NCBI RefSeq assembly: GCF_024713945.1
Contig: NC_134678.1
Span: 6,882,001-6,946,000, forward strand
Direction of reading: 5' to 3'
Length of the DNA: 64,000 nt
Source of the DNA: Dermatophagoides farinae
Taxonomy: Eukaryota > Arthropoda > Arachnida > Sarcoptiformes > Pyroglyphidae
The translations under genes and the position numbers were made by a program. Below, in pieces: positions 22,435 to 25,170 of this stretch. Position 1 is the first letter of the stretch, and every line of letters begins with the position of its first letter. The notes under the pieces were generated by a model. It saw nothing but the letters and a program-made list of their open reading frames with translations. It did no database searches and was not told where the DNA came from.

Positions 22435-23024
22435 ATGGCCGAAGAAAATGATCAATCAAAATTTCGTTTACCCGGACTATATGGCAATACTGATCTCAAT
22501 TCACGAATCAATATGTTTCAAGAACAGGCAGAAAAACATAAGGAAAAACAAAAACTTAATCCATTTTCCGGTTCATTCGATGCAGTAGCTGCGGCTAAAC
22601 AAAAATTGAATAAAGAAGATCCAAAGTAAGTTTTTTTGCTAAATTTCTGAATACTTTTAAATTATTCATTCATTCATTCATTCATATTCATAGCTATGGA
22701 AAACCAGTAGAAGGTTCAAAAACCGAACAACGTGGTAAACAGGCATCACAATTGATTGCAAATGAAATCAAATTATTGACAGAAATTATTCAAAAACATG
22801 GTACAATGAATGAAGAATCCGACAACAAAGAAGTTACAATTAAATTCAAAGAATTATTTGAATTATATAAAGTAATCTCAAGTAAAGTAGTTGGTCTATT
22901 ATTACGTGCACGTAAACATGGCCTAGTACGTTTTGAAGGTGAAATGCTTTATCAAGGTCGTGATGATAATGTTATCATTACGATGGATCCATCGATCAAA
23001 TTGGAGGATATTAATTTTGATTGA
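22435..23024 (+). CDS. ABRA: Costars-domain actin-binding Rho-activating protein (ABRA-like)
   Basis: Exons 22435-22625 and 22694-23024 join in phase to 174 codons. The N-terminal half (FRLPGLYGNTDLNSRINMFQ) is a linker with charged coiled character. The C-terminal ~85 residues (from KQASQLIANEIKLL) match the Costars fold: EI..LT.II..HG, a conserved FKELFELYKVISSKVVGLLLRARK helix block, and the terminal VRFEGEMLYQGRDDNVIITM strand segment. ABRA/STARS proteins bind actin and activate SRF signalling through Rho; the Costars domain alone occurs in ABRACL. The start is chosen because MAEEND lies in a good context and upstream stops block extension. The same region has two other actin or tubulin genes, but no functional linkage is implied. 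Confidence 0.85.
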
Positions 23025-23470: not shown

Positions 23471-25170
23471 TCAAAACAAATCTGGAAATAATTCATGAAG
23501 ATCAGAATCAAAAGTCATCATTTCATCGATTGATGGCTGTAGATTATCTTCACTAATGAAATCAATTTCATTAGGATATTCTTTGTCAATGTTTGTTGGA
23601 AACAAAAGATCAATATCTGGAATCGATATTTAAATTTTCCAAATTCAGAATATTATTTTTTTGATCATCATCCAATGCAAATAGATTAAATTGTTGAGTT
23701 GTTGTTGCTATTTTGACATTATCGATTTTGGGTGTCGATTGAATCGGTTCAGGTGATGACATTGATTCATAACCAATATCACTATTATCCGATGATGATG
23801 GTTGTGGTGAACTAAGCTGATTATGTTTAATATTCAAATCATTATTATTTTGGTCCATATTAGACGTGACCATTGTATACAATGTAGGATTGATTGCATA
23901 ATCATGATCGATTATAATTGAATCATTAGCTAAATCCGTAGCCGTACATGTTTCCGTTGATATTGTTGTATTAATGTATTCAATTGGCATTGTTTCGCCA
24001 ATTCCGATAAACATTGGCTGAATTCTAGATCCATTTCTTGAAGATAATTTTCGTTGTTTAATTGAATCTGACTCAATTGTTTTAATACCAAATTGATTAT
24101 CGGTTCCGTTATTGATTGACTGTTGCTTTTGTTGTTGTTGCTGCTGCTGTTGTTGTTCGAATTCAGTGAGATTGTAGCCAATAAAACCATTAAAAAGTTG
24201 GTCAACTGCTGTAGCGAGCAAGTCTTCATTTGCGGTTCCTTTAACGATTTCTGATGTTGATGATGATTTTGTTTTCCGATTGTTTTGTCGATAGTTACCA
24301 ATGGTTGGCGGACATTTTCCATTTTTCCATCCTTTTCGGCCAATACTTGCACCTTCGGCTGAGGAACATTAATGAGTTCGGCTGACTCAAAAGCATTAGC
24401 CGTTGAGGTGGATGAATAGTTATCCGAACTTTGGTAACTATCTTCATCACTACCATCAACATAATCATCATCATAATCATCTACATCATTATCATCATCT
24501 TTAATAGATTTATCATCATCATCATCGTCGTCATCAATATGACTATTTTTATATGAATAAAATAATTCCATTGTATCATCGGATTCTGGTTCCAATTTGA
24601 TTGGTTCGATACCCAATTTTTTCCTTAAATTATCATTTTCTTCAATATAAAGTTTTAATTTTTGTTCCAAATAACGATTACGTTTTATCAAATCATTACG
24701 TTCTTTACCCAAATGATTATTCTCCTTTTCGAGATCCATCATTTTCTTTTTCTTACGATCACGTGCACTTTGAGCGGCCATACGATTTTTTAATTTTCTA
24801 TTTTTTTGAAAAATGAAATTATTTATTAACAATCATCAAACAATTACAGATTGATTTACAATTACCTTCGCATGACCTTTTGTTCTTGTGTCAGATGATC
24901 TAAACGTTGACGTTTACGTTTCGGTTTTATTTGTTCCGTCGCCATCTTATCACCATCATCATTTTGTTGGGTAATACTGCTATTTAATGATCGTTTATGA
25001 TCACCACCACCACCACCACCACCAGCACCGACGAGCGAAGAATCATTAATTATCATTTTCATTGCGTTTGATGATGATGATGATGATGATTTACAAACAA
25101 AATTATTGGATAAAATTAATCTATCTATTTGTTTGGGCAATATGGTTGCGGTCATAGTTGTCGTTGACAT
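23471..25170 (-). CDS. XBP1: XBP1 bZIP transcription factor of the unfolded protein response
   Basis: Exon 1 is 25170-24866. Exon 2 starts at 24797 and joins in phase to give RRKLKNRMAAQSARDRKKKK, the XBP1 basic region, followed by a leucine zipper. Unspliced reading stops at 23930 (390 residues) and includes a hydrophobic patch (TNFLMVLLATISL) at the place of HR2 in XBP1u. Removal of the 23-nt IRE1-type intron 24359-24381 shifts the frame (E-S-A-E-G-A at the junction, as in human E-S-A-A-G-A). The long transactivation frame then contains SDIGYESMSSPEP and stops at 23610. A further conserved-looking end (LHELFPDLF, stop 23471-23473) lies in another frame just downstream. In the family, IRE1 cleavage on ER stress makes the active factor. 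Exon 1 is rich in Ser/Gly. Confidence 0.93.
24359..24381 (-). other. XBP1: IRE1-type unconventional 23-nt intron of XBP1
   Basis: On the minus strand two seven-base loops CAGCCGA, each fitting CNG|CNGN, are 23 nt apart. The 5' loop is closed by GAGT/ACTC, the same closing stem bases as I recall for human XBP1. The 3' loop is closed by CCT/AGG. Cutting after CAG in each removes 23 nt, which is 2 mod 3 and moves reading from the XBP1u frame to the long downstream frame. No GT-AG borders exist, as expected for IRE1/RtcB splicing. Confidence 0.9.

Follow-up and report, generated by a model that had tools for sequence, protein, structure and literature searches.

A minus-strand gene of the mite Dermatophagoides farinae, lying in the window considered here (the whole stretch of 64,000 nucleotides that was analysed), is almost certainly XBP1 with the standard IRE1 switch. 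Splicing of XBP1 by IRE1 is a well-known stress switch, and we regard the D. farinae intron as an added member of this family which brings no new mechanism. The gene, its two loops, their fold and the change of frame, as well as genes for IRE1 and RtcB in the genome, are found by computation. The first-pass annotation, which gave no strand, had proposed a mite XBP1 with a readable IRE1 intron and loops of an unusual kind; we retain the XBP1 identity, the 23-nt length, the cut sites of IRE1 type and the switch of frame, and withdraw the point concerning the loops (see Discussion). The species can be narrowed to D. farinae because the genome encodes a protein with 111 residues identical to Der f 21 over 114 aligned; a cathepsin-like gene and a group-2-like protein did not identify the species.

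Results

Gene and identity

The features are collected in Table 1. We took the name XBP1 from the human sequence and from the intron, since the Pfam matches for the mite bZIP are to general bZIP families only. The domain is a Pfam bZIP_2 (25.7 bits against a cut-off of 22.3), and 41 of 84 residues are identical to the bZIP region of human XBP1. A search of the PDB with the bZIP returned weak matches, the top one to NRF2 (E 0.0033), and a search of NCBIfam with it returned no match. The XBP1 exon has 1 match across the D. farinae genome. Relatives were sought by a scan for the bZIP exon; it gave 2 pattern matches in viral contigs and 37 in genome contigs, 0 of which were confirmed.

Table 1. 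Features of the D. farinae XBP1 locus (positions in the window) and the two RtcB loci elsewhere in the genome
Feature	Position	Strand	Remark
XBP1 gene		-	
XBP1 exon 1	24866..25170	-	from the first ATG to the start of the basic region (MSTTT...MRR)
Spliceosomal intron of ordinary type, 68 nt	24798..24865	-	GTAATTGT...AAAAATAG; predicted from splice letters and frame
XBP1 exon 2, until the first IRE1 cut	24382..24797	-	bZIP and acidic linker
Twin hairpins and their closing stem of 11 pairs	24338..24402	-	CGGCUAAUGCU/AGUAUUGGCCG
5' IRE1 loop CAG|CCGA, 7 nt	24378..24384	-	in a TGAGT/ACTCA stem (5 Watson-Crick pairs)
IRE1 intron, 23 nt	24359..24381	-	CCGAACTCATTAATGTTCCTCAG; excised if each loop is cut after its third base
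3' IRE1 loop CAG|CCGA, 7 nt	24355..24361	-	in a CCT/AGG stem (3 Watson-Crick pairs)
XBP1s tail	23610..24358	-	spliced frame, ends with TGA
XBP1u tail over the spliced frame	23930..24358	-	includes the stretch TNFLMVLLATISL
52-codon frame, +1 relative to XBP1s	23471..23629	-	coding-like, ends DSDLHELFPDLF; probable true XBP1s C-terminus
RtcB ligase genes, two loci	G000:C14:143223-144728 and G000:C1:141209-142581		

Loops and frame switch

Two copies of CAGCCGA placed 23 nt apart, each with a stem and fitting CNG|CNGN, had been noticed in the first-pass annotation, and both are located on the minus strand with their closing pairs. If nothing is excised, the frame encodes a product of 390 aa with its stop at 23932-23930. 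Removal of the 23 nt at 24359..24381 joins the bZIP frame to a long downstream frame, as had been claimed, and the product becomes 489 aa long with its stop (TGA) at 23612-23610. The two products, XBP1u and XBP1s, have 242 residues in common. The spliced translation at the junction reads AFESAEGASIG, which bears out the expectation that E-S-A-E-G-A is recreated there. Past the junction, the spliced frame has 248 open codons with coding-like codon use.

RNA fold

Folding of the RNA in this region was one of the checks proposed in the first-pass annotation, and it is in agreement with the reading. The minimum-energy fold around the site consists of two hairpins on a stem of 11 pairs, with z between -2.6 and -3.2 (-2.68 for 71 nt, -2.59 for 111 nt and -3.23 for 141 nt). 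When the protein was held fixed and recoded with genome codon usage, 0 of 1000 recodings were equally stable (z -4.7); among permutations of the gene's own codons, 9 of 2000 were (z -2.94). The isolated hairpins are weak (-1.2 and 0 kcal/mol). The fold needs the closing stem, since a 58-nt stretch in which this stem is shortened has a stability no better than that of its shuffles (z -0.09). The spliced RNA is predicted to retain the closing stem across the junction, which agrees with the zipper-like structure of XBP1 RNA described in PMC6037481.

Among Rfam families, RF04247 (bZIP non canonical Hac1/Xbp1 intron) matches at 24401-24338 with E 0.029, and all 72 model positions are covered. It is the best of the 13 listed Rfam matches, both by bits and by E-value. 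Its score of 27.2 bits is under the gathering cut-off of 41 bits, a curation threshold and not a functional feature.

One could object that the 23-nt stretch is no intron and that the loops and frames have come together by chance in a low-GC, repeat-rich gene. The CNGCNG motif alone is indeed little informative: the window has 62 matches where 17.4 are expected, and many of them lie within CAG/CTG repeats. A twin-loop pair is also present in 16 of 2000 versions of the gene with its own codons permuted. However, the pair with stems (defined as two loops 18-35 nt apart, both closed by 3 or more Watson-Crick pairs) has 1 occurrence in the window, both strands considered, and none in 200 whole-window dinucleotide shuffles. 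Recoding with genome usage gave it in 0 of 2000 cases, with a codon table in which 92 of 2081 codons came from the wrong strand. The exceptional fold, the location of the site at the XBP1 position behind the bZIP and the rank of RF04247 among the listed matches argue in the same direction, and we believe that the chance reading has next to no prospect of being right.

IRE1 and RtcB genes

The D. farinae genome contains one IRE1 RNase domain; the open frame that carries it is 713 aa long and has a hydrophobic segment. Residues 199-609 of this frame match solved IRE1 (E 2e-120), and RNKxHHY is retained. The ligase RtcB is represented by two loci (Table 1). One copy is an uninterrupted frame of 573 aa with an inserted basic stretch, and the other is split into exons; two RtcB copies in one animal seem unusual.

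The XBP1u tail

For 141 codons, no stop interrupts the unspliced frame where it overlaps the spliced frame. After synonymous recoding of the spliced protein, an equally long open frame was present in 51 of 20,000 cases with genome codon usage and in 440 of 20,000 cases with the own codons permuted. The genome usage was taken here from 1989 codons in 9 plus-strand loci, namely the IRE1 RNase domain and 8 genes for cysteine proteases. The long overlap exceeds the expectation from synonymous recoding, which suggests that the XBP1u tail is kept. Strong selection on this tail is disfavoured, since its own codon score is poor: within the overlap, the score is -0.842 for the unspliced frame and -0.900 for the third frame, which contains 14 stops. 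The spliced frame itself has -0.577 there versus -0.405 before the overlap and -0.362 after it.

The tail of vertebrate XBP1u is dual-frame. The mite gene is similar in that the unspliced frame is open across the spliced frame and a hydrophobic stretch is present. Vertebrate XBP1u has the regions HR1 and HR2 (PMC8948244). In the mite, an equally hydrophobic 13-mer was found in 365 of 425 recodings that have at least 70 open codons (genome usage) and in 1180 of 2258 such recodings with own codons. Since most of these recodings carry an equal 13-mer, the residues of XBP1s mostly dictate the hydrophobic stretch of XBP1u, and the proposal of an HR2-like membrane signal in mite XBP1u was not upheld.

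The C-terminus of XBP1s

The XBP1s frame meets its TGA (23612-23610) where a conserved-looking C-terminus runs on in the +1 frame from 23629. The codon score of this 52-codon frame is -0.378, versus -0.664 and -0.627 in the two other frames there; it is close to the -0.362 of the spliced frame after the overlap. We compared its end, DSDLHELFPDLF, with the end of human XBP1s, DTFANELFPQL, and 10 of 3000 shuffles were equally good. A Pfam search with the 52-aa C-terminal piece gave no match. We also considered a spliceosomal intron of 40-420 nt that would restore the C-terminal frame, taking donors from the 400 nt ahead of the stop. The frame remains open with 19 GT-AG pairs, none of them with a donor convincing by eye, and the candidate was rejected.

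It seems probable to us that the need for +1 at 23629-23610 reflects either an error of one base in the assembly or a defect of the allele, and that the real XBP1s ends with ELFPDLF. The coding-like score of the 52-codon frame and its likeness to the human end favour this view. The accuracy stated in PMC11074847, 99.975%, amounts to about 0.4 expected error in the 1.7 kb of the gene, which makes an indel in the assembly the simplest reading. On the other hand, the site is not a long homopolymer, and the assembly had short-read correction according to the same source. XBP1s may alternatively be truly truncated at this TGA. A more elaborate proposal is that a second one-base change near 23629-23610, brought about by +1 frameshifting of the ribosome or by a further, unusual step of RNA processing, adds the ELFPDL end, so that the full XBP1s would be gated twice, and that the XBP1u tail is selected as dual-coding. 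We consider this proposal improbable. The assembled XBP1 gene has a frame problem, and an automatic gene model could err there.

Discussion

We presume that cleavage, ligation, control by stress and transactivation proceed as in the known pathway. The unspliced mRNA would encode XBP1u, a bZIP protein of 390 aa. In response to ER stress, IRE1 would cleave the two CAG|CCGA loops, which are displayed on twin hairpins with a long closing stem, and RtcB would join the exons after the cleavage. The loss of 23 nt would shift the frame and put the longer XBP1s tail in place of the XBP1u tail.

The site might instead be decayed, or cleaved without joining (i.e., serving decay), and in either case only XBP1u would be left. 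The RF04247 score below its cut-off, the weakness of the isolated 3' hairpin, the C at loop position 5 (A in mammals) and the stop of the XBP1s frame ahead of the conserved-looking C-terminus can all be cited for a lost or decay-only site. Yet the site retains both cut positions, the loop stems, the closing stem and a length that changes the frame, the 248 codons of the spliced frame past the junction are open and coding-like in their codon use, and the genes for IRE1 and RtcB are present. We find such a loss highly improbable and keep to the standard switch.

The opinion of the first-pass annotation that the loop bases CCGA and the identity of the two loops are unusual could not be maintained. 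Position 5 is free in the loop consensus CNG|CNGN (PMC6037481), so the C fits it, and the consensus of RF04247 shows the same letters, CUGCAGC, at both sites. The mite loops depart from the mammalian form CNG|CAGN (PMC8674358), their position 5 being C; this form defines mammalian sites and not the whole XBP1 family. The notion that the mite loops represent a new IRE1 recognition code is also out, since positions 1, 3, 4 and 6 match CNG|CNGN. Concerning the length, most of the insects examined have an XBP1 intron of 23 nt, and Lepidoptera and Coleoptera one of 17 nt (PMC13027231); it is 23 nt in Drosophila (PMC8948244). Mammals differ, with 26 nt. The XBP1 intron of D. farinae thus looks ordinary for an arthropod.

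With the metazoan intron family (RF04247) the mite site shares 7-nt loops with C1, G3, C4 and G6, the twin hairpins on a closing stem, the location directly after the bZIP and a length that switches the frame; in contrast to the consensus CUGCAGC, its loops diverge at positions 2, 5 and 7, and the score is below the cut-off. XBP1 of Diaphorina citri and other insects is similar to the mite gene, with 23 nt, CNG'CNG loops and frames fused into a longer XBP1s, and in D. citri the 23-nt intron was confirmed by sequencing (PMC13027231). The same source gives 347 aa for XBP1-U and 939 aa for XBP1-S of D. citri, versus 390 and 489 aa in the mite; ORF2 of D. citri sits 615 nt downstream of ORF1. The tick Ixodes scapularis is a chelicerate like the mite. 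According to PMC9426425, its xbp1 is spliced under thapsigargin (the PCR product changes from 459 to 434 bp), and bacterial infection causes no splicing in the tick. A described mite XBP1 intron was not found among the literature matches listed, which consist of titles and abstract beginnings.

The exact predicted IRE1 splice site is now available in a major house dust mite, and an RT-PCR assay for the 23 nt at this site would report ER stress in mites.

The neighbour of XBP1 is a gene on the plus strand at 22435-23024; it has two exons and a Costars domain (93.6 bits).
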